Part shown: positions 19,987 through 42,398 of the stretch, in pieces
Layout of the letters: every line of letters begins with the position of its first letter
Position numbering within the stretch: the first letter of the stretch is position 1
Source of the DNA: Xestospongia bergquistia
Taxonomy: Eukaryota > Porifera > Demospongiae > Haplosclerida > Petrosiidae
Assembly (NCBI GenBank): GCA_963965975.1
Contig: OZ014416.1
Location: forward strand, 558,001 to 622,000
Direction: 5' to 3'
Length of the DNA stretch: 64,000 nucleotides
Made by a program: the position numbers and the translations under genes
The notes under the pieces: generated by a model
The model's database searches: none
What the model saw: only the letters and a program-made list of their open reading frames with translations
What the model was told of the DNA's origin: nothing

Positions 19987-22900
19987 TAAAGGTGTTATCT
20001 TTTCAGTCTCCAGTTATAATTCCGCCAGATAATAGAGAGCACTCTGTTCTTGTCTTAAAGTTCACTATGCAGTCTTCTGACTGTTTCTTTAACACTACTC
20101 TACGTCTCTCAACTAATATTTCTTTTGTCAATATTCCACTTCAATGTTACGATGGACGACTTGATGTAAGAATGGACAGATAAATAGCAAATGGATTGAT
20201 AGAATAATTGAATGGATGGACAGATGAACAGCTGTTTATCAATAAGTAATTCACTAGACTTTGTTTATTGTAGTATGATTTTGGTGGTCGTGATATTGAT
20301 GCTATAGAATTTGGTCTACTCTCAGATCATGATACTTCAAGTAAACTGTTTACTATCACAAACATTAATCCTGTGAGGGTAAGTTATAATAGTTGTATTA
20401 CTGATTTTACTTTCTGCTTTATCTATAGATATCTGTTACAAGTATTGGAGTACAAGAGGGTAGTAATCTTCCCTCTACTTCAGTGCATGTCCTCGTGTTA
20501 CCTCATGTAGAACCTAATGGAAAAGATGATGTCATTTTGGCTTCAAAAGATGGATTGAAGAAAGGAAGACGACCACCTGTGAGTTTGTCTGCCTATTGAT
20601 CTGTCTGTCGTTTGTTTATGTCTTTCTGTTGTTTGTTTCTGTCTGTCTGTTGTTTGTTTCTGTCTTTCTGTCGTTTGTTTCTGTCTGTCTGTTGTTTGTT
20701 TCTGTCTGTCTGTTGTTTGTTTCTGTCTTTCTGTTTGTTTATTTCTCTTGTTGTACATTTAGTATTACATGGATCCTGGTCAACAGATTGTCTTTAGAGT
20801 CAATGTAACAAGACCAAAGAGACCTGGTCGATTTAGTGGTGAGATCTTAATTCATTCTTCACTTGGCAAGGTACACATGATATATATTGTTACTATTAAT
20901 AGTATATACACACAGAAGCTATTAATAACTTTATTTTATCCTCATAGATTGTACATGTCCCTGTTAATTATGAGGCGATAATTGGTGGCATTCAAATTCT
21001 TCCTAAAAAGCTTTATTTTGCATCTTCATTTCTTGTAAGTTAAAGATTATTATTATACTTCTCTATTGTTTTTATTAGTATTCATAATTACTTTATTACT
21101 GTCTATTATTATACTCTATTGTTTTTATTAGTATTCATAATTACTTTATTACTGTCTATTATTATACTCTATTGTTTTTATTAGTATTCATAATTACTTT
21201 ATTACTGTCTATTATTATACTCTATTGTTTTTATTAGTATTCATAATTACTTTATTACTGTATATTATCATACTCTATTGTTTTTACTAGTATTCTTCTT
21301 CCAATTTACGGCTATATATTAAGAACACATTTACAAAACCAGTCAAACTGGTTTCTTTGATGATAGAATCCATCAATGGCAGCTCTCAGAGAACTAACTG
21401 TTCAGAACATGAGGGTACATTTCCTGTTCTCCTTCCCATGGAATTACCGGTCATAAAACCCAGTACTACAACAGTGGTATGTGAGCCTATAGAATATGCT
21501 ATCATGTGACTGTCATGTGACTTATATAGATTGGAGATTTGATGTTGGATCCATTAGTGGCTCTTAAAGATTTATATATAAAAATTGATTTAAATGGTAA
21601 ACGACTCTAATTATTAGTACTTTTAAAAGTAATATTTTCTTAGATACCATTACAAACAGATCAGATCAACAAGGTCAAAAGTCATTAAAAACTGAACTAT
21701 ACCAACTGGATCGATTATGGAGGGCGTGGCAATCATTAATTGATCAAGGATTGACGTGGTTCAATTTTACATTAAAGGTCAAAACTAAAGATAAAGGTCA
21801 TTTTACTGTACCTGGAGTGGGTTCCATTTCTTGGCCAAAGATAGCCACATCTCATATTCTTACTTTTCCTCTAACTCTTATTGGAAACTACACAGTAAGT
21901 TTACTAGGTATCCATTTCACTTATATTCATCTGTCCATTTGATTATCTGTTTGTCCATTTATTCATCTCTTCATCCTTATAGGAACGTTTTCTTCACCTT
22001 CACAATCCCTCTAATAATTCTTTATTCATTGAGCCAATATTTCTACCAGAGTGTTCAGAACCTACACAAGTCCTAGGAAAACTTTCTGAGAAATTCAACA
22101 TTGACCAGACCCTTTATAACAACCCTATTAGCAGCGCATTTGCTGTAATTACTGATGGGTCTAAATCCTCTAAGCTGAAATCAAGTTTCGTTTTACCTCC
22201 CCGTGGGAAAGAGACTTTGAGAATAGGTTTCAGTCCAAAGATTGACAATCAGACTCATGGATTATTGCTATTACGTAATAATTTGACTGTGTTGGAGTCT
22301 GTTCAACTAGTAGGTTTTGGAAGCCGAGGGTTTATTACTATAGATGGGGTACATCCTCATGGACCACAGTCACTCCTCTTTGAATTCAGCCAATCTGTTT
22401 TAGATGGATATATCAATGGCATGGAATGTAAGTGTTGTAGTAGTTTGTATGTACCTTAACCACACCCCTCACCACACCCAGGTGGTATGCAAGTCTATGA
22501 ACTATTATCTTATGCTAAAGTGTTTCATGTACGTAATTCTGGCCCCACCCCTTTTACCATTAAGAAGAGTAGCATAGATGGACTTGGTTGTGATGGAAAT
22601 GGTTTTAGAATTACAAATTGTGACAAACCTTTGATTGTCTATCCAAATAGAACAAGAAAGATTGAAGTCATGTAAGTAAAGAATGGATGAATGGACAGAC
22701 AGATGAATGAATGGATGGATGAGTTAGTAAATGATGGTCAGATCACAAAATTCTTGTTTATTTAGTTGTAGTCCTGATTTTACTCTCTCACGCGTGACCA
22801 GTACACTTCATCTTCACACAGCTGATGGTTCTCTTATGGACTTTCCCCTTGTAGCGACACTACCCCATACAATGTTGGCTACTTGTTATGCTGCTTTGCC

Positions 22901-26835: not shown

Positions 26836-27318
26836 ATTAAGTCTGGTCTCATCTTTCCCGGAATAATTGATCTTCTCTTAATGGATATGATTTGGATACT
26901 TTAAAAGAACTATGTTTTTTTTTAAAAGGCAATCTACCATCACATGGTCCTTGTAGGACCACTCCATTTGTGTGTATGTGTAGATAATACCTCATATAGT
27001 ATATAGTAGTGTAGAATTTAATTTAGTTTCATTGAAAAAGAAACATAACTAGTTTTTTGTTTCATTTTATTAAATGGAACGAGAGAGAGAAAGAGAGTTA
27101 ATGTACTCACTTAACTACTCTGTGATAGTTTTGATCAAAAAAATACATTTATTGGATCAATTACAAAATGAAAAATTACCCATTCAAATAAGACACCCAC
27201 TTATTTGATCATGAGATAGGGAATTACCCTGGGAAAGTTGGCCAACTAGCTATAAGCATTAAGTGAAGTTAAGAAAGTTTGAGAGAGTTTAAATGCTACG
27301 GGCGTTCTGGCATTACTA
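26836..27318. other. Intergenic region with 5' flank of MIF4G-RING copy A
   Basis: 3' flank of TMEM131 followed by the upstream region of copy A. The part 26990-27150 is repeated upstream of copy B (see separate entry). No other gene. Confidence 0.6.
26990..27150 (+). promoter_or_regulatory. Duplicated upstream region, copy A
   Basis: About 150 bp here match 33118-33270 upstream of copy B with few differences: shared are the stretch around TAGTGTAGAATTTAAT, ACATAACTAGTTTTTTG, a GA microsatellite, and TTAATGTACTCACTTAAC. The start codon follows 170 bp later in A and about 85 bp later in B. The match shows that the duplication included 5' flank, so the paralogues may share control elements. 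Whether it is promoter, 5' UTR or both is not visible. Confidence 0.6.
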
Positions 27319-30300
27319 ATGGCTGATGGTGAAAGGACTGTTGATGCATTAACAAAAACAATTCACAGGACAAATGATGACAAGTCGGCGACACCATTAC
27401 ACAAGAGCCATCTCACTTCAAGAGAGAATGACAACTTCAACGAAGAATTTCAAGTAATATTTAACGTTACGTACTCTGTAACTCTATACAGATTATCTAT
27501 ACTGCATAATGATATATCTGATTACTGTGTTATATTTAGAGAATTCTTGACCAACTGCCACGTCAGAAACGACTTAAATGTTCAGCTGAACAAGCTCAAA
27601 ATCTTGACATTAACAGTACTGTAGAAAGACTCCAGACATGTTGTGATAAAATTCATTCCATGGTAAGTAAAGTAAAAATTTTCATCCATTTTATCTAGCA
27701 GTCGTGTATTTAGGTACTGTCAGATCCTACTAATGTAGAGATATATGCTCACTTCTGTCTTCTACTAGCTCATGTAAGTTTACTATAAATGGTAGTACTC
27801 TTGTTATATCAATCACTTGTACACTACAAACAATATCCTTTCAAGTGGTGCAATGAAGCACTTATTTCAAGTGTTTTGTGGTTGACTATGAATATTTTAT
27901 CTTTTTTATGTATTTTTCAGGTCAAAGTACAGGTCACAGGGCAAGAAAGGGAAACAGCAAAAGTTTGCTTTAAGAGTGGGATTATCTCTAGTTGTTTGAG
28001 AGAGTTTCAGAGAAATTCATTAGATGAACGAGAAACTATGCTAAAAGCTATTGAAGATGCTAGTTCAGTAAGTATAACACTGATTGTTGTTAATTTGAAG
28101 TTTTTGTTTTATAGATTAGTATCTTTTGATTTTTTTTAATTTGCTTTTACTGTTTGTGTCAACATTTATTAATTAATGTATGTAATTAGGAGGAAGAAAA
28201 GAAAATTAAAAATGAAGAACTAATTAAATGGGAAATTATGTCTCATGAAAGATCACTTGTCAATGCTCAATTTATTGCACAACTCTTTAAACTAGAGGTA
28301 ATATGTTTATATACAATAACCACTTGATTTGGTTATTGCAGATGCTGCCAGAGAGTATTATGGATGATTGTATTAAACAACTGTTCAGAGCATCAGATGA
28401 AAGAGCTCTGGAACGTTTCTGTCGATTAATTGTGATTGCGGGCGAAAAGTTAGACCATCCTCTAGCTAAGGTATATGAGAAGGAAATGTTACATGTAACA
28501 ATGCTGCATTGCCATAGCAACGCATGGACCAACATTTTAAACGTGTAGCTGATATTATTGAGAAAAATGAGATATCCCCACATATCTGTTTCATGTTACA
28601 AGATCTCGTTGAGATGAGAGAGGTAACCTTTGAAATGATTGAAATGTTTTATACATGTATTGTATAGAACAAATGGCAATCGAGACCTCTTGAACCAGAG
28701 AAAGGGCCTGAACAATTCATGCAATTGGAAGAGCGGGACAGAGATTATAAATTAGGTAAGAGCATTAGTTGATGCAGTCAAAACTGTTTATTTCAGTTGT
28801 CTGTAATGGTCAAGATGAATTAAGATTAAGTGGGCAGAGAGACATTACCCCTGACATAAAGAGAACATTACTGAGCAACTCTAAAGAGGTTAACAAGAAC
28901 CACTACTTTATCTTAATCTAATTATGTAAATATCTTTTATAGTCTGGAGCTACTCTTTCTTCAGGAGCTAGTCTTTATCCCAGTGGCCGGGAGAGCAGCC
29001 AGCCACCTCCTCCTCCCCCTGACTCTAAGACTGAGGAGGTGAGAGGTAATATCACACAGACTAGAGGTCTACAACGGTTAGTATTTTGTAGAGAGTACAA
29101 CATACTACATATGTATATGTGGATGTGTCTTTAGACCTGGTGCCTCAGGTAACAGACGACAGATTGTATCTGCTCAGACTGACTCAGAAGACCTCCTATC
29201 AGATACACAAGTATTATTGCAACAGTCAGCAAAGAAGAAACCTATAAACAAATCAAGAGAGTCACATGTTACTCTTAATCAATTTTTACATAACAAAGTA
29301 CATATTAATAGAACAGTTTGTCCTAAAGTCTCCATTCTATTCTAGTTGGAAGAAGTGTCTACATTGTCTGTTGTAACTAAAAGGAAGAATCATAAAGGAA
29401 ATGTAAGTCACTCTTAATTATTGATGTATATATATGTGATGTCTTTTGTTTATAATACAGTACATTCCACCTTTAATGGAAGATGGTGAGCAAATTGGAA
29501 AGAAGAAACGAAAAAGGTACTCATAAGATACGTGTACTTTAGCAGTAGCCATGGTAACACTAGTCATCTCATGCATGAATTGCTTGAATCTAATGAAGTT
29601 GATCTGAGCTGTATGTTGATGAATTATAAATTTTAGTCTAGAGAGCATTCTTGTTATGTAGATCAAAAAAAAGATCGAAAAAGCAAATGCCAGAACTACC
29701 TGATCGTATGGAATTACAAATTGAGGATGGAATCCCAACTTCACCATCTCTTATGGAGAATAATGGAGACAACCCTAACACCTTGGATCTTCTAGAACAA
29801 CCTCAAGACGAACAAGATGAATTGGATGGACAACATGTGAGTTAATAAAATTTTTCTTGATATAAAATATGTTCTTTCTATACATCAGCAGGAGGCACAA
29901 GTGCTTACACCTCTTCAACAGCAGCATAACATAGAGGATGACCCTCTAGCATCTACCAGTCCTCATCATCACAGAGAGGATGGTTCTACTAGTCCTCAAA
30001 ACCATGAAGAAGATGGTCTTCAGCTGCCTCTCAGCGCTAGATATCACAGAAATGATGGTCCTCAAGTACCTACCACCTGCCCTCAGCAGCATGGAGATGA
30101 TAGTCCTCAAACACCTACCAGCCCTCAATGTCATGGAGATGATCCTCATATACCTCCTACCCACACTCAGTACCATGATGATGATGATCCTCAAGTACCT
30201 ACCTACACTCAGTACCATGGTGATGACGATCCTCAAGTACCACCAACCCACACTCAATACCATGGTGATGACGATCCTCAAGTACCACCTACCCACACTC

Positions 30301-32539
30301 AATACCATGATGATGATGATCCTCAAGTACCTACCTACACTCAGTACCATGGTGATGACGATCCTCAAGTACCACCAACCCACACTCAATACCATGGTGA
30401 TGACGATCCTCAAGTACCACCTACCCACACTCAATACCATGGTGATGACGATCCTCAAGTACCACCTACCCACACTCAATACCATGGTGATGACGATCCT
30501 CAAGTACCTAATAGCTCTCAGGACCACAGAGATGATAATCCTCTAGTATCTGCTAGTTCTCAATATCACAGAGGGGATGGTCCTCGATTACCTGGTAGCT
30601 TTCAGTATCACAGAACGAATGGCCCTCGAGTATCTACAAAACGTCATCATCAGCAGAGTAGTCATACTCATCATCAACAACAAAGCTATCCTCAAGTACA
30701 AGCTTGGAGACATCCTGTTCATTCTTTTCAGCAACTCCATGGATGGGATAGCCCTATTCGTCCTCATGACCAACCCCAAGTAATTGGAAATGGATACTCT
30801 CAAAAACAACCCTATGATTATCTTCAGTCACAGTCCCACACACAAGGTTACCTTCATCCACAATTCCATACTCAGGGCTACCCTCATCCACAATCCCATA
30901 CACGAGGTTACCCTCATCCACAATTCCATACTCAGGGCTACCCTCATCCACAATCCCATACACAAGGTTACCCTCATCCACAACTCTATACTCAGGGCTA
31001 CCCTCATCCACAATCCTACACACAAGATTACCTTCATCCACAATCCTATACACAACATTATGCTGGTTACCCTCAGTCACATTCCTATTACTGTCAGCCC
31101 CAATCCTATACACAACATTATGCTGGTTACCCTCAGTCACATTCCTATTACTGTCAGCCACAATCCTATGCACAAAGCTACATTCATCCACAACTCCCTA
31201 TGCAGGGTTATCCTCACCCACTACCCTATTCACATTCTCCTAGTTACCAATCCAATGCATTACTTGACTGTCATCAAGTATCAATTCCTCCTCTCCAAAT
31301 GAATACAACACAGGGTAATCCTTTCCCTCAACCAAATACATTATGTCATAATCCTGTTCCTCATTGGCAACACTCACATGCACCCAACAATTCTGTCCTT
31401 CGTCAGCGACAATCATATACTAATAGATCACATGATAATCATGCTCCTCAACCCTACATGAGCATTGATGCTGACCCTCATCAACAACCATATAGATCAC
31501 ACAGTGATCGTGCCCCTCCTCAATCCTACATGAGCATTGATGCTGACCCTCGTCAACAACCATACAGATCACACAGTAATCATGGCCCTCTGCAACACTA
31601 CATGACCCTTCCTTGTCAGGGACTACAGCAAATGGACCCTACTCCTCCTAAAATATCATCTGTTACTGCTACACAAAGCAGTCCTCTTCAAAAACGATCT
31701 TACGCAAGTGCATTACAAGGTGATTCTCCTTTTCAAAATTCATGTACAAAAGGTAACCAATCTTCCATAGCAACTATCACTTTATATTATAAACATATGA
31801 ATAACATACCATTATCACTATAGGTGATCTTGTTTGCGTCACACTGCCTGAAGATTTGATTTTGGAGTTCTATAAAAAGGATTCAACTCTAGTTAAAAAA
31901 GTACAAGAGATATTACCTACACTGCTATATAATCTGTTTCCTCCTTTATAGCCATTACGTCAACCAGGTCTAGTTGTTGATGTGCGAGATTCAGACGGGG
32001 CTCTTGTTGTACGGTATCCTAGCACTAATGAGAACGTATTACTCCATGCGGCTACTGTCACTAAAGTCACACACTTTAAGGGGGATGATGTTATGATAGT
32101 GAATGATAGAAATTTGATTTGCAAGTATCATGGAGAAAACAAAGTGAAAGTAACAGATTAAAATAATATTATATGAAATATATTGGCTTTGTTTTCTGTT
32201 GTATAGTTTTGCGGTAAACTTGGTAATGTGGAAAAAGTTGTTGATACACAAGTTGTTGTTAATATTAATAACCAAGAAGTTCTGTTCGATCAATACTGTT
32301 TGATGCCAATTTGTAAGTTTGTATTTTTTAAGTTATCCAGAAAACGTTTATTGATTTTTTTGATTTCATGATTTTATTATATTTCTCTGATCTTAGGTAA
32401 GGATGCGATTTGTAATATCTGTTATGACAATATCAGCAACAAAACATTAAATTGCAACCATATGGTTTGTTCTCAATGTTTACCGAAACTGTTGACCTGT
32501 CCTTTCTGTAGAAGACCGATCAATAGGTTTCATTTCTAA
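27319..32539 (+). CDS. MIF4G - repeat linker - SH3-like - RING protein, copy A
   Basis: Nineteen exons give 1,319 aa: 27319-27453, 27540-27662, 27714-27773, 27921-28067, 28190-28297, 28342-28470, 28518-28622, 28668-28755, 28797-28888, 28943-29076, 29135-29297, 29346-29402, 29461-29516, 29662-29836, 29889-31752, 31824-31900, 31952-32149, 32207-32312, 32397-32539. Residues about 46-275 are an eIF4G-like MIF4G domain (RILDQLP, AQFIAQLFKLEMLPESIMDDC, MDQHFKR, ICFMLQDLVEMRENKW). A Lys/Arg-rich segment and a 600-residue Pro/His/Tyr/Gln/Asp linker follow. Residues about 1146-1270 resemble the SH3 repeats of mind bomb/HERC2 (FCGKLGNVEKV to CLMPI). The end is a C3HC4 RING (CNIC, CNHMVCSQC, CPFC). No MA3 or W2 domain is seen. 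Inference: a RING E3 tethered to translation factors such as eIF4A. The acceptor at 29886-29891 is CAGCAG, allowing one Gln to be included or skipped. Confidence 0.85.
30129..30509 (+). repeat. 45-nt coding tandem repeat in copy A
   Basis: About eight units encoding variants of PQVPPTHTQYHGDDD (15 aa; some units 14 aa with PTYTQ). Nucleotide identity between units is very high, so the array expanded recently. A long antisense ORF over it is a shadow. Confidence 0.95.
30835..31195 (+). repeat. 30-nt and 60-nt coding tandem repeats in copy A
   Basis: About nine units encoding HTQGYPHPQS variants (10 aa), followed by two near-identical 60-nt units encoding YTQHYAGYPQSHSYYCQPQS. The composition (Tyr, His, Gln, Pro) is that of a disordered linker. 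Confidence 0.92.
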
Positions 32540-33353
32540 ATTGAATTTGTAGGAATCAATCATCTAAATAAATTAAATATTAAATTAATTATATGACTGT
32601 GTAGGATAGTAACTAATAAACAGACCAATATCAAGGTTTCTGAAACTCATTAATTTGGTCATTAATAGAAATGATAATAATTTATTATTGTTTTATTGAT
32701 TCTATTAAATATGAGTATTTATAATAATAATATTATATATATTACTAGTCATCATAACAAGCAAACAAAATTCTACAAAAGAAAATAATTGTCTTGAGAT
32801 GGTGTAGCTCTTCTTAAAGAACATCAAAACAAAGTAAAAATGAACAATGTAAAGAGAGAGAGAAAGGTATGGCTAAGAAGAAGAATTTGTGAATGGGTGT
32901 TGTGATTACAGATGATTATGATTAATAAGTACACGACACTCTACCACTGAAATGTCAAGACTGTAATTTTTCAATAGCACTCTCATCATGATCCAGTGGA
33001 CCATATAGGATGTATAGACAAGGATGTGGAAACCACAAAGAAACCATCTCGTAAGCAGCTTTTTAAAATGTAATACAACATTTGAGAGCAGTAATACTAA
33101 TGTCACTTAACAGGATTTTATTATATAGTAGTGTAGAATTTAATATAGTTTCATGGGAAAGAAACATAACTAGTTTTTTGTTTCATTTTATTAAATGGAG
33201 AGAGAGAGAGAGAGAGTTAATGTACTCACTTAACTACTCTGTGACAGTTTTGATCAAAAGAAATAGATCAATTAAAACAAGAAGACGTTTGCTTACGTCA
33301 TTTTATGGGGATTCCCCATTATTCCCTGGGCATTGTCGCGGTACTTTACACCA
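32540..33353. other. Intergenic region between copies A and B
   Basis: 3' flank of copy A (32540-32780), which resembles the 3' flank of copy C (42135-42340), then a stretch with no recognisable gene, then the duplicated upstream region of copy B (33118-33270). Confidence 0.6.
33118..33270 (+). promoter_or_regulatory. Duplicated upstream region, copy B
   Basis: Matches 26990-27150 in order and with high identity, including the GA microsatellite. It ends about 85 bp before the chosen start codon of copy B. Confidence 0.6.
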
Positions 33354-33557
33354 ATGGCTCAGAGCAATTCTTGCAGAAGATATCGAAGAATTATTGAACA
33401 TCGCCCAGCTAAAGCAGTTCTTAGAACTACAGAGCACAGATGGACTCCACTAAAAAAGAGATGTCTCAGTTCAGAAGAGAGGGAGAAAGAAGAAATAGTT
33501 TCCAAATTTCAAGTAAAATAATTTTATGGGGATTTATAAAATATACAATAGTTATAT

Positions 33558-33588
<31 letters not shown>

Positions 33589-36500
33589 GTGTAAAATAAA
33601 CACGTATCAATCACATTCTCTGTCTTACAGACTATTCTCAACAAACTGACTCATCAAAATTTTGAATGCTTAGCTGAGCAAGCTCGAAATCTTGACATTA
33701 GCACTGAAGAAAGACTACAAATATGCATCAATAAAGTATTTTTGATGGTGAGTATTTTTTACATTTTATTGTCTCTTATATCTACCTATATATATAGGTG
33801 CAATTAGTTTCTAATAAGGCCAAAATATACGCCTACTTCTGTCATACAATATTTTGTGTAAGTTCATTCCAAAAGTAGAGAGTTGTGAATATATTATGTT
33901 CTACATTAATATTATTATTATTATGTATTGTATTGTTTATAACTCATTTATTATCTTGAAGGCTTGGATTGCAATTTAGCATTAATTTTGTTACATTTAA
34001 GCTACTTGTAATGATCCTTTGAAGTGCTTGTAATAAGCCACTTATCTCAAGTGGTTGTTGTGATGAGTGATCATGGCCTACAACTACAAATATTAATTAA
34101 GATGAAAATAATAAAACAGAATAAATATAATTTTGTGTATTAAAACAAATTCAATTTTTGTTTGTGTTTATTTTGTTCATTCAGATCAAAGAGAAGGTAG
34201 TAGTTGTAAATGAGAAAGAAACGACAATATACGCTTGGTTTAGGAGGGAGATTCACTCTAGATGTCATAGAGAATTTGAGAAACAGGAACAAGCAGCTTT
34301 GATGAAAGCAATTGAGGAGGCTACTTCAGTGAGTGGACCATTCATTAACAGCAGCATTTGTGTGTGTGCATATTGAATTTGTTAATTTTATTGGGGTATT
34401 TAAATCATGTAAATTAAAAATTTGACAACCATGTACTTAATTTATTTATTAATTTAATGTGAATGTCATGACAACAGATATGATTGATTTGTAATTTGAA
34501 GCAAGTAGACATTTCTATAAATCACATCACAGCTTTATTAGCCTTCTAAATATCATCATGGTATAGGACCTATACCATCTATTTTACTAGGACACGATTA
34601 TTCAAAGCCTGATTTAAGCAGTCTCATTCCTGTATTTATCAGTTGTGTTACTATTGTCATTGAATTTCTAGGAGGAAGACAAGGAGATTAAAAAGAATGA
34701 ACTTATCGAATGGGAAATTAAATCTCACAAGCGATCTCTCGCTAGTTCTCAATTTTTTGCTCAACTCTTTAAACTAAAGGTGATTTGTTAATACATAACA
34801 ATCATTGACTTGACTTGGTCATTTCAGTTGCTGTCAGAGAGTGCTATGCATGACTATATTCAGTATATTGTACATCTGGTATGTTCAACATTTGATGAAG
34901 AAGCTCTTAAATCTTTTTGCCATTTGATTAAAACCATAGGCAAAGAGCTTGACGATTCTCAGACTAAAGTAACACATGTATAACATATCAAGCTGTTTAT
35001 TCTTGTTGCCATAGCAATGTATGGATCAATATTTTGAATGTATAGCTGGTGTCTTTGACAAAAAGAAGATATCATTCCATATTCGTTTTATGTTTCAAGA
35101 TATTCTGGAATTGAGAAAGGTGGTGACCTTTGAATAAAATTAATGTCTGTAGTACACAACCAGTCTACCCCTGGTTAAAGAGAGGAGAGGGTGGTTCACA
35201 AGATCAGTATACTCTATGCATATATACATGTATCAAATGTATTGTGATAGGAAAAGGACTGTAGCCCTCCCCCAAATGGAATTGAGCCTATAGACATTTG
35301 TTTTTATATGATACCTACAGTGAATATTCAAACGATCTCTCTTGTTCCTAAACTATTATAATGTCAGATAATTACTAACAATTCCTATTAACTGCTTTTC
35401 CATACTTAATGATGTTCTACTCCTGTAATTATTATATTTATTATAATTATTGTTTATCACATTACAGAACAAATGGGAACATGAGAAAAAAACAGACCAG
35501 TACATGCTATTAACAGAACAGGAAGATATATTGCCAATAGAGCATGGGCTGGGTAAGTTTATTTAAATTTGTTCATCTTTAATATGTTATATTAGTTTCT
35601 AGTGGTCAAGATGATGTAGGTGGACAGAGAGAGTCCGTTCCTAATGTAACAAGAATAACAGCTTTGGTTAGGAACCATAAAAAGAAAGAACATGTAAATT
35701 ATGTCCTTGTTACTTATCATTGTCAATTTGATTGTCCTCCTACACAGGCAGTACCTATTCTTGGTCCAGGATGTAATCTTTGTCCCAGATGGAAGAGACC
35801 CCAGACACTTATCCCTCCTCCTGATCCTGACTTAAAGACAGAGAAAAAATCAAAGCAGAAAATGTTGTTAGCTTCACAACTTACTGGACTGTCCGGTTCT
35901 ATTGAATTCGAACTGGACACTACTCAACTTATTAATCCAAGCCCACAACCCTTTGTACAGAATGACATATCAGATGATGAGGCTCAGAGTAACTCCTCAG
36001 ATGTTCCAGTAATTCCAGGGCAGCAGTATGAAGAATTTCAAGTGAAGAATGATGACTGTGATGTTGTACATGTAAGATTACCAAATAGTACCAGCTTTAA
36101 ATGTCATGATATATTTCATTCTCTTTAGAGTTTTACTCTCCAGCAAGAAATGCAAACAACTTTACACACTAATTTTCAACAAGCATCTACTAGCCCTCAA
36201 CAACAACCTCATAGAGAGAGTACTCCTCAAGCATCTCAGCAACAAATTCATAGTCCTGAAGTAACCTCTAGCGCTCAACACAGAGAAGGCACTCCTCAGG
36301 CACCCCAGCAAGTTTACACTGCTGAAGTACCTCAACAAAGAGAGGGTACTTCACAGGCACCCCAGCAAGTTTACACTGCTGAAGTACCTCAACAAAGAGA
36401 GGGTACTTCACAGGCACCCCAGCAAGTTTACACTGCTGAAGTACCTCAACAAAGAGAGGGTACTCCTCAGGTATCCCAGCAAGTTCACACTGCTGAAGTA

Positions 36501-38422
36501 CCTCAACAAAGAGAGGATACCCCTCAGGCACCCCAGCAACTTGAAGTAACTCTTAGCCCTCATGGAGAAGGTATTCCTCAAGTATTCCAGCAAGTTTACG
36601 CTCCTGAAGTACCCACTAACTCTCAACACAGAGATAGAAGTTTACAGTCATCCCAGCAACTTCATAGTCCTGAAGTACTTGCTAGCCCTCAACAACTAAC
36701 CCTCAGAGACCACATTCCTCAACCAACTCCCAACACAGAGGAGAGTCCTCGAGTACCTAATACCCATTGGCAACAGGCTCATATTCCTCAAAGATTTGCT
36801 AACCCTCCTATTACTTGGCAGAACGATCATCCAGAATCTATGCATTTTCAAATACAGCAACCTGTTTACTCTCATCAGCAATCTTATGGATGGGATCATC
36901 CTCAAGTACCTATACATACTCAACAACCAGAGTATGTACCTCCACAATACTATGGACAGAATAATTATTACCAGACACACAGTCATTACCTTTTGCCACA
37001 ACCACATGCACAAGATCCAGCTGTTTACAACTCTAATCCATCATTGTTCTCTTTTCAAATGCTTAGTTCTCCCCAATCACATTTCTACATGAACACATTT
37101 CAACCCAACCCTACTCTTTGTCCTCCTCAATCCTATATGATTGTTCATGCTCCTTGTACACCACTACTGCATATAAGTAATGGTCCTACCCCTCATCAGC
37201 AGGCGCAATACATGAATACTGATCTTGGTCCCCCTCACCAACAATTTTATCCAAGTGCATCACCCAGTATTCCTCCTCATCAAACCTACATGTCGGCTTC
37301 TTGTCTGCCATTACTGCACAGTCATGTCCCTCATCAGCAACCACAATACATGAACACAAATACTGCTTTTCCACAACAACAATTTGCTTTTCACAACCAT
37401 TCTCCTCCTCAGCCCCATGTGTCTGCTCCTCATCCTCCGCTATTTTCCAATAATATTGGCCCTCCTCTTCAGCAACGACCCATCAACCCTTTATCTCGTC
37501 AGCAAGCACAGTACAGACCTAGAAAGACTAATCCAGTTCCTCTTCACCAACAATCCTTGTTATTGGCTAATGATTGTGCTCCTTCTTGCCGACAATCTCG
37601 TCAAAATCATTCTGATCTTACTAATATAGAAGGTGAGCAATGTCACTTGACTATCACTTGACTTGATTATTTTATTATATCTTAAAAGATAACTTGGTGT
37701 GTGTCTTACTGAGTAAAGAACTGTTTGATGATATTCAATTATCCTATTTGGGTCCTGAGCAGTATCAACCAACTGATCAAGTAAGAGTATTCTTCAACCA
37801 TTACATAAACTGTCTTCTCTTCTATAGCCATTGTGTCAACCAGGTCAAGTGGTTGACAAACAAGATTCAGGCAATGCACTTATTGTTCGGTATCCTAGTA
37901 ACAAGGTAGTGTTAATTCTCCATGCAGCTACTGTTACTAAAGTGAAACATGCCAAGAAAGATAGAGTGATGGTCGTAAACAGTAAAGACTTGGTCTATAA
38001 GTATCATGGAACAAATGCTACAAGAGTAAGATACCATTATAGAGTCATTGTATTAGTCTTAACACTACTGAAACAATAAGTCAAATGTGTTTTCTTTTTT
38101 ATAGTTTTGTGGTAAGCTTGGTACTGTCGAAGAAGTTTCTGTTCGTGGGGTGGTTGTATCTATTGATAATCGAAACATTTCCTTCAATCCATTCTGTTTA
38201 ATGCCAGTTTGTAAGTTCATATTTTCAATATATAGGAATTTATTTTTTTACCATATCACAGCTGATAATGCAATCTGTATAATATGCGTTGAAAATCTCC
38301 GTGATGTTGTCATGGACTGTTGTAGTCAACAAGTGATGTGCTCTGAATGCTTAGACAAGCTAGATAAACCAGAGTGTCCATTCTGTAGATGTCCTATTCA
38401 ACAAAGGACAGAGCTTTGTTGA
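33354..38422 (+). CDS. MIF4G - repeat linker - SH3-like - RING protein, copy B
   Basis: Fifteen exons give 1,133 aa: 33354-33512, 33631-33747, 33798-33857, 34185-34328, 34672-34779, 34828-34968, 35015-35119, 35468-35552, 35596-35693, 35748-36071, 36129-37632, 37689-37780, 37828-38025, 38105-38210, 38262-38422. Intron positions and phases match copy A over the MIF4G and C-terminal exons. The N-terminal exon is Arg-rich. MIF4G (about 54-307) is closer to the eIF4G consensus at its start (TILNKLTHQNFECL, LDISTEERL) than copy A. The linker (about 340-948) is Pro/Gln-rich with different tandem repeats. The SH3-like segment ends FCLMPV. In the RING the expected histidine is glutamine: CCSQQVMCSEC where copy A has CNHMVCSQC. 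Exons corresponding to A12-A14 are absent. Zinc binding and ligase activity of this RING are therefore doubtful. Confidence 0.83.
36285..36540 (+). repeat. 57-nt coding tandem repeat in copy B
   Basis: Four full units and a partial fifth encoding QAPQQVYTAEVPQQREGTS variants (19 aa). Units are almost identical in DNA, and unrelated to the repeats in copy A, so each paralogue grew its own array. Confidence 0.95.
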
Positions 38423-39715
38423 AGCATGATTATAGAACAGCTAACAACTGAGGTCTTCAAAGATATAAATAGTTGTATATAATATATGAAAGTAATATGA
38501 AGTTTCTATAAATAGAAACAGATAAATCAGGTCATTTGATACAAATAGTATTTATTTTTACCACTTAATTTTTTTACGAGAAATTAATAATAATTATTAT
38601 TAATTATTTTATAATGAAGGGGTGTGACTATTTTGCATGTGGTTCTGATTTGAGTTTCGTGACAGCTTACTATATATAGTACTTTTTATTGGAGAGTTCT
38701 GCTTAAGGAGTTGGGTTTGTCTTGTCTTCTAACAATCAAAAAACAGGTATTCTTAGAGTACATAAACAGTTGAATTAGCTAGACTGTTGTAGTCAACAGG
38801 TGATGTGCTCTGAATGTTTAGACAAGCTAGATAAACCAGAGTGTCCATTCTGTAGATGTCCAATTCAACAAAGGATAGAGCTTTGTTGATGAAGCATGAT
38901 TATAGAACAGCTAACAACTGAGGTCTTCAAAGATATAAATAGTTGTATATAATATATTACAGTAATATGAAGTTTCTATAAATAAAAGCTGATGAATCAG
39001 GTGATTAGATACGAGTAGTATTTATATTTACCACTAAGTCAAGATATTTTTTTATGAGAAAACGATAATAATTAATAATAATTATTATTAATTATTTTAT
39101 AATGAAGGGGTGTGACTATTTTGCACGTGGTTCTGTTACTATATAGTACTTTTTATTGGAGAGTTCTGCTTAAGGAGTTGGGTTTGTCTTGTCTTCTAAC
39201 AATCAAAAAACAGGTATTCTTAGAGTACATAAACAGTTGAATTAGCTAGACTGTTGTAGTCAACAGGTGATGTACTCTGAATGTTTAGACAAGCTAGATA
39301 AACCAGAGTGTCCATTCTGTAGATGTCCAATTCAACAAAGGATAGAGCTTTGTTGATGAAGCATGATTATAGAACAGCTAACAACTGAGGTCTTCAAAGA
39401 TATAAATAGTTGTATATAATATATTACAGTAATATGAAGTTTCTATAAATAAAAGCTGATGAATCAGGTGATTAGATACGAGTAGTATTTATATTTACCA
39501 CTAAGTCAAGATAATTTTTTATGAGAAAACGATAATTAATAATAATTGTTATTAATCATTAATTACATGAACTGAAGGGGTGTGACTATTATATCCACGT
39601 GTTATTGAAGGTTTCAAGAGGCCTGCTTAAAGAAATCAGATTTGTCTTGTCTTCTAACAATCAAAAAACAGGTATCCTTATAGTACATTAACAGTTGAAT
39701 TAGCTATTTCTGGCG
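38315..39715 (+). repeat. 467-bp tandem triplication of the RING exon end plus 3' flank
   Basis: The sequence GACTGTTGTAGTCAACA inside copy B's last exon (38315) recurs at 38782 and 39249, both intervals being exactly 467 bp. Each unit carries the second half of the RING exon, the stop codon and about 350 bp of 3' flank. The two extra units have no upstream exon, so they are non-functional RING remnants; the third has a Cys codon changed to Tyr (TACTCTGAATG). Homology stops near 39716. Confidence 0.93.
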
Positions 39716-40655: not shown

Positions 40656-42133
40656 ATGAAATCAAGCAAGCAATTTTCCACTTTTGGTGATTTTTTCAAA
40701 GTACATATTAATAGAGAAATGTATCTTAAAGTATCCATTCTACTTTAGTTGGAAAAAATAGCTCCATTACCTGTTGTAGCTAAAAGGAAGGGTTATGAAG
40801 GAAGTGTAAGTCACTCTTATTATCAATATATATATGATATCACTCCTATTGTTCCAGCCTTTAATGGAAGATGGTGAGCAAATTAGAAAAAAGAAACAAA
40901 GGTACTCATAAGATATGCAGTAGCCATGGTAACACTAGCCATTTCGTGCTTGAATAAAGTTGTTCTGAGCTGATCCAATATGATATGTTGATCCAATTAG
41001 AATTATAAATTTTAGTCTAGAGAACATTCTTGTTATGTAGATCCAAAAAAAGATCGAAAAAGCAAATGCCAGAGCTACCTGATCCTATGGAATTACAAAT
41101 TGAGGATGAAATCCCAACTTCACCATCTCTTATGGAGAATAATGGAGACAACCCTAACACCTTGGATCTTCTAGAACAACCTCAAGACGAACAAGATGAA
41201 TTGGATGGACAACATGTGAGTTAATAAAATTTTTCTTGATATAAAATATGTTCTTTGGAGGCACAAGTGCTTATACCTTCTCAACAGCAGCATAACAGTC
41301 CTCCTCAGAAACATTCTTATGCAAGTGTATTAAAAAGCTCTAAGTTGTGTGAAAAAGGTAAGCAATCTCATGTAACAATGGATAAGTTAATATTAGTAGT
41401 ATATCAACAACTTAACATCTAATGTAATTTTCCCATAGGTGATTTGATTTATGTCACACCACCTGAAGGCATGTTTTTTGAGTCCTATATGAGGGGTCCA
41501 TATGTAAGTAATAAAGTAAGACAATACTTACTGTTATGTAAACTGTTTTCTCCTTCATAGCCATTTGGTCGACCAGGTATAGTTGTTGTGCAAAAATCAG
41601 ATGGTACTCTTGTTGTGTGGTATCCTGTTATAAGGAAGAATGTATTGCTCCGTCCAGCTGATGTCACTAAAGTCACACTCTAAAGGTGATGATGTGATGG
41701 TAGTGAATGATAGATACTTAATCCTGGAGTATCATGGAGAAAGTGCTATTAAAGTAAGTGGTACTTTGATTAATTATTAATAGGGTTTCGTTCCTGTTAT
41801 ATAGTTTTGTGATAAACGTGGTATTATTATAAAAGTGTTTATTCATTCACGGAATAATAAAGTGTTTATTGTCAAAATTGGTGATCAGGAAGTTAAATTC
41901 AATCAAGTTTGCTTAATGCCAATTCGTAAGTTCAAAACTTGTTAATTGATTTTTATTTCATAACTTCATTTATTATAATTTTCTCTGATCTTATAGTTAG
42001 TGATACAATTTGTGCTGTCTGTTATAACAATTTCAACAACATTGTCTTAAATTGCAGCCCTAAACATCAGATTTGTTCCCAATGTCTACTGCGACTAGAA
42101 AAATGTCCTTTCTGTAGAGAACCAATTCAATAG
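40656..42133 (+). pseudogene. MIF4G-RING copy C, 5'-truncated and frameshifted
   Basis: Exons homologous to A11-A14 and A16-A19: 40656-40700, 40749-40805, 40858-40901, 41041-41215, 41288-41357, 41439-41515, 41561-41753, 41805-41925, 41997-42133. The MIF4G exons and nearly all of the repeat linker are missing. In the 41561 exon a 2-bp loss relative to copy A after GTCACAC shifts the frame and gives TAA at 41681-41683, before the SH3-like end and RING. Downstream exons are otherwise open and encode an intact C3HC4 RING (CAVC, CSPKHQICSQC, CPFC), so decay is recent or a rescue exists. Decayed similarity to exon A11 extends to about 40550. Two in-frame donors 12 bp apart (41503 and 41515) are possible. 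Confidence 0.75.
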
Positions 42134-42398
42134 GCTTCATTTCTTAATTGTATTATTGAGTATATAGGAATAATCATCTGATTAAATTAAATTAAATGAA
42201 TTATATGAGTGTGTAATAAGAGTTTTCTACATAATAGAAACTCATTAATATTGTCATTAATAGAAATGGTAATAATTGTTTTATTGATTTTTATTGACTA
42301 TTTATAATAATATTATACTAGTCACCATAACAAACAAACAATTCATACAGAAGTCTCAAAGGGGGTGTGGCTCTCCAATAAAAGCAAAATAAGTTAAA

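Follow-up and report, generated by a model that had tools for sequence, protein, structure and literature searches.

Tandem genes in the sponge Xestospongia bergquistia that appear to join the MIF4G domain of eIF4G to the REP repeats and RING of Mind bomb

In a stretch of 64,000 nucleotides from the sponge Xestospongia bergquistia (contig OZ014416.1, here called C6; C6:558001-622000 in a 146 Mb genome of 21 contigs), which we refer to as the window and whose own positions are used for the features below, two neighbouring genes each join a MIF4G domain of the eIF4G type to a tail of the Mind bomb (MIB) type, with two REP repeats and a RING finger. These genes, copies A and B, would be tandem copies of one chimeric gene, and that they are fused genes is something we hold with high confidence. 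The full claim, that they are an expressed chimeric eIF4G-Mind bomb RING ligase tethered by its MIF4G to eIF4A or to messenger ribonucleoproteins (mRNPs), is to our mind evenly balanced. A third copy, C, is a 3' fragment. The locus shows a new gene born by fusion, and a single contig is enough to recognise both parental families, their exon phases and, between two phase-1 introns, a probable deletion.

One frame from MIF4G to RING

A sequence-only reading of this DNA had joined a MIF4G domain, a repeat-rich linker, an SH3-like segment and a RING in one in-phase model, and such a model is borne out in both copies. With GT-AG splicing, copy A (27319-32539, forward strand) gives a single open frame of 19 exons and about 1,302 amino acids, with its ATG at 27319 and its stop at 32539, and copy B (33354-38422, forward strand) an open model of 15 exons and 1,133 amino acids. 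The junctions of both were picked by frame and homology. Since 384 of the offered copy A splice-site combinations remain open to the end in a script enumeration, several junctions in the linker of copy A are uncertain, as are its small linker exons; even so, an in-frame path leads from MIF4G to RING. The same reading had the intron positions and the order of parts repeated in copy B, and this holds for the exons on both flanks and for their phases, though not for the middle of the linker, where a single copy B exon (35748-36071) stands in the place of copy A exons 10-14. The MIF4G domain scores 78.0 bits in copy A and 78.8 bits in copy B against a Pfam cut-off of 30.8, and the RING (zf-C3HC4_3) 31.9 and 32.4 bits against a cut-off of 27.

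The two halves are separated by a giant exon of 1,864 nt in copy A and 1,504 nt in copy B, each stop-free in one of its six frames; when the exons were shuffled by mononucleotides, 1000 times per copy, a stop-free forward frame was left in none (0/1000 for each). Tandem repeats within the giant exons make up 14 rows, and in all 14 the period is a multiple of 3; the two rows elsewhere have periods of 2 and 467. Neither giant exon has a Pfam match at E <= 0.1. The lysine-rich and acidic exons 12-14 of copy A have no Pfam match above the cut-off, and a genome search outside copy A finds them in copy C only.

The two parental genes

The 5' half of the fusion is, by its domain and exon structure, derived from eIF4G. 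Its MIF4G matches human eIF4G1 at E 5.8e-36 in copy A and 1.8e-39 in copy B. The same contig also carries, on its minus strand, an intact eIF4G gene at about C6:534-539 kb (MIF4G at 537.4-538.7 kb, MA3 at 536.1 kb and W2 at 534.6 kb), the MIF4G exons of which are some 47 kb upstream of the fusion genes. The seven exon boundaries examined all fall in the same alignment columns in copy A, copy B and this gene (7/7), and all are in phase 0. Identities of the MIF4G-region proteins over aligned columns are 141/317 between A and B, 128/264 between A and eIF4G, and 140/272 between B and eIF4G. The fusion has MIF4G sequence, exon boundaries and phases in common with eIF4G1, eIF4G3 and the intact gene, and also part of the linker after MIF4G: the copy B equivalent of exons 8-11 matches the eIF4G linker in a search, and by eye exon 11 of copy A is like the exon that precedes MA3. 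The fusion differs from eIF4G in its lack of MA3 and W2, both present in the intact gene; Pfam scans of pieces covering both copies found neither domain in A or B, and the matches listed by genome searches are all outside the window, at the intact gene among other sites. Neither copy has an eIF4E motif (YxxxxL-hydrophobic) upstream of MIF4G; the pattern matches three times elsewhere in copy A and nowhere in copy B.

An origin of the MIF4G from DAP5 (eIF4G2) was rejected, as DAP5 scores far lower than eIF4G1 in both copies (70.2 bits in A and 62.4 bits in B). DAP5 is a relative of eIF4G which, like the fusion, lacks the eIF4E-binding N-terminus, but unlike the fusion it is not known to have a RING. 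Several eIF4G-like MIF4G exon matches are also found on contig C1 (4.398-4.407 Mb; L052, L044), near a kinase-like open reading frame (ORF) and long repeated ORFs, and genome searches for MA3 and W2 listed no match to that contig.

The 3' half, with its two REP repeats and last RING, is by homology and intron phase derived from Mind bomb. The search for its parent compared two genes, MIB_414k (C6:414 kb) and MIB_1493k, with the Mind bomb-like loci L041 and L053 left out. MIB_414k, which lies some 167 kb upstream of the fusion on this contig, is the better match of the two: it scores 144.5 bits to SH3_15, has MIB_HERC2 and finds 4xi6, a solved structure of MIB1, at 4.3e-40. A profile hidden Markov model (HMM) of the three tails (A, B and C) finds the REP of MIB_414k at E 2.6e-11 and that of MIB_1493k at 0.0012, the best of 2,000 shuffles reaching 0.094; the reverse search from MIB finds A at 1.1e-8, B at 9.5e-8 and C at 1.1e-4 (best shuffle 0.24), and hhalign gives E 2.2e-13. 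In MIB_414k the REP introns are in phases 0 and 0, the exon of the second repeat (REP2) ends in phase 1 and the last RING exon is entered in phase 1; the corresponding places of the fusion have phases 0, 0 and 1 in both A and B. MIB_1493k was rejected as the parent, being the weaker match, with a last RING exon that by eye appears to start in phase 0. By itself the RING is no proof of a Mind bomb origin, because RING3 of MIB1 ranks only third among its PDB matches (6.3e-6, after RNF4 and BIRC7); the two repeats next to it, and the phases, speak for one. The sequence-only reading had called the SH3 segment mind-bomb/HERC2-like; the tail HMM and the phases favour Mind bomb, with the segment as REP (SH3_15), and not the Mib_herc2 domain.

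Compared with MIB1, MIB2 and MIB_414k, the fusion has the same two REP repeats, last RING and intron phases, but an added N-terminal MIF4G and one RING instead of several, which follows directly after REP2; the last RING is the one that is catalytic in MIB1. Pfam scans found no MIB_HERC2, ZZ module or ankyrin repeats in copy A or B. The ankyrin repeats and earlier RINGs of Mind bomb have apparently been lost between two phase-1 introns; a deletion there would join REP2 to the last RING with the frame kept, and is the simplest route. At C6:1.46-1.50 Mb (L041, L042, L053) there are further loci of the Mind bomb kind, genes or pieces of genes, that match RING and SH3_15.

Features of the fusion locus, in window positions (an empty cell means that no basis is given)
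Feature	Position	Strand	Basis
Upstream element, copy A (putative promoter/5' region)	26997..27148	+	93% identical to that of B
Copy A exon 1, N-terminus	27319..27453	+	open model; 3' boundary common to eIF4G
Copy A exons 2-7, MIF4G domain	27540..28622	+	Pfam MIF4G; human eIF4G1 match; intron positions as in eIF4G
Copy A exons 8-11, eIF4G-like linker as far as the place that MA3 takes in eIF4G	28668..29297	+	open model
Copy A exons 12-14, lysine-rich and acidic linker	29346..29836	+	open model
Copy A giant exon 15, Gln/Pro/His-rich repeats	29889..31752	+	single open frame; repeat units multiples of 3
Copy A exons 16-18, two Mind bomb REP (SH3_15-like) repeats	31824..32312	+	MIB homology; MIB-like intron phases
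Copy A exon 19, C3HC4 RING, stop	32397..32539	+	Pfam zf-C3HC4_3; MIB1 RING3 PDB match
Upstream element, copy B	33119..33268	+	93% identical to that of A
Copy B exons 1-7, N-terminus and MIF4G	33354..35119	+	open model; Pfam; boundaries; human eIF4G1 match
Copy B exons 8-10, eIF4G-like linker	35468..36071	+	open model; linker search
Copy B giant exon 11, Gln/Pro-rich repeats	36129..37632	+	open model; single frame; repeat periods
Copy B exons 12-14, two Mind bomb REP repeats	37689..38210	+	open model; MIB homology; phases
Copy B exon 15, RING with His ligand replaced, stop	38262..38422	+	open model; Pfam; ligand check
467-bp tandem copies behind copy B, with part of its last RING exon in them	38582..39590	+	
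Copy C, 3' fragment: linker exons, shortened giant exon, REP, RING; without MIF4G	40697..42133 (matched stretches 40697-42353)	+	

Possible function and rival explanations

The chimeric gene would have arisen when copied central exons of eIF4G, with MIF4G and linker and ending before MA3, were joined to REP1-REP2 and the last RING of the Mind bomb gene on the same contig, and an expanded Gln/Pro-rich linker would have come to lie between the two parts. In the protein the MIF4G would tether the ligase to eIF4A or translating mRNPs, the REP would add substrate binding and the RING would recruit an E2. PMC10948362 describes HEAT-1 of eIF4G as an eIF4A-binding domain, and in MIB1, according to PMC6713736, REP helps substrate binding and RING3 alone is required for the characterised substrates. 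Expression, eIF4A binding, ligase activity and a translational role are plausible extrapolations from the sequence. We expect copy A to be an active RING ligase on eIF4A or mRNPs and copy B to be weaker or a decoy, because A keeps the C3HC4 ligands and B lacks the His; ligase activity is more likely in A than in B. It is unlikely that the fusion replaces eIF4G, since it has no MA3, W2 or eIF4E-binding N-terminus. A more specific role, which we put forward as a tentative possibility, is that of a lineage-specific chimera whose MIF4G docks the ligase on eIF4A and translating mRNPs, which would bring the ubiquitylation of initiation factors, nascent chains or ribosome-associated proteins under translational control. 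Should the protein act in the way that its parts lead one to expect, translation initiation and ubiquitylation would be linked within one chain.

Each part is of a known kind and the arrangement looks new; among the papers listed by literature searches (open-licence PMC text only), none describes a MIF4G-RING or eIF4G-Mind bomb protein. RNF219 with CCR4-NOT (PMC8660800) is also a RING E3 ligase beside the mRNA machinery, but RNF219 is a separate cofactor of that complex, whereas the fusion has the MIF4G in the same chain.

Some findings weigh against an expressed and functional fusion. Of the three profiles named as a check by the sequence-only reading, MIF4G and zf-C3HC4_3 are above cut-off in both copies, but SH3_15 is not listed for either at E up to 1. 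The C3HC4 RING which it saw in both copies has the full set of zinc ligands in A, but in B the zinc-binding His is missing, although the domain is above the Pfam RING cut-off. Copy C is broken, with the acceptor before the giant exon lost and a frameshift and stop in REP. The polyadenylation motifs (AATAAA/ATTAAA) of copy B are, 10/10, in the MIF4G half (33595-35133), and none is found within about 280 nt past the RING stop. The ratios of nonsynonymous to synonymous substitution (dN/dS, by Nei-Gojobori) are rough, dS being high: for MIF4G they are 0.48 between A and B, 0.26 between A and eIF4G and 0.27 between B and eIF4G, and between A and B they are 0.46 for REP and 0.35 for the whole tail, with dS saturated in the RING alone. 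That they are below 1 in both halves nevertheless suggests purifying selection on both.

We consider it rather unlikely, though a serious alternative, that an expressed fusion would mainly modulate Mind bomb, competing with its REP and RING, and without MZM, for the substrates or partners of MIB, with the MIF4G as a scaffold only and copy B as a decoy. The lost His of copy B would suit this, as would the 49% identity of the A and B tails and the Drosophila Mib1 without MZM, which in PMC11887331 appears dominant negative in a REP-dependent way. The fly variant, however, lacks by its description MZM only and by our reading should retain ankyrin repeats and RINGs, unlike the fusion, and the MIF4G, closely eIF4G1-like and with a dN/dS also below 1, speaks against this explanation. 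That the chimera is a decaying product of duplication with little or no function is less probable still. The broken copy C, the duplicated part of the copy B RING exon behind that copy, its damaged RING and the scattered MIF4G fragments on C1 are signs of decay; two open frames of great length whose splice sites fit, repeats that have grown in frame and dN/dS below 1 in both halves are hard to reconcile with it.

Very unlikely, in our judgement, is that the locus gives two transcripts, one from a MIF4G gene and another from a distinct REP-RING gene, that are joined in appearance only. Copy C is a 3' half that exists without MIF4G, and the distribution of the copy B polyadenylation motifs would also agree with two units, but in copy A 4/10 of them lie within 80 nt past the RING stop, which makes this kind of evidence mixed. 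The giant exon is open over its full length in both copies and the splice phases fit on both sides. A blastn comparison of A and B (E up to 0.001) gave four stretches, three over coding exons and adjacent intron and one of 152 bp upstream of the MIF4G start. As the only non-coding block conserved between the copies is found there, a promoter at the MIF4G end is favoured over an internal one. A common repeat was rejected as the nature of the block, which a genome search (one that skips very common words) places at two sites, both of them here. The block is 93% identical, to be compared with about 45% for the N-terminal proteins, which could mean recent conversion or strong constraint.

Copy C and other loci

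Copy C is probably a pseudogene, because of its lost acceptor and frameshift. Genome-wide searches with the tail, the linker and the MIF4G piece, with the best candidates scored, found no further member of the fusion family; weak RING-part matches at C15, C5:8.18 Mb and C12 stand outside this result. A second REP-RING family at C5:1.50 Mb was rejected, since the 5.5 kb there has RING ORFs followed by genes that by eye look TRIM-type, and the REP part of the alignment was gapped and crossed an in-frame stop. The tail alignment gave 208 pattern-matching stretches in prokaryotic contigs and 53 in viral contigs, of which 0 were confirmed in either. Such collections are not where an animal gene of this kind is expected. 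Elsewhere in the window, tandem repeats with units of 21 and 53 nt lie at 20579-21315, and from 42399 onward there is an ORF whose start is, by eye only, SAM-domain-like.

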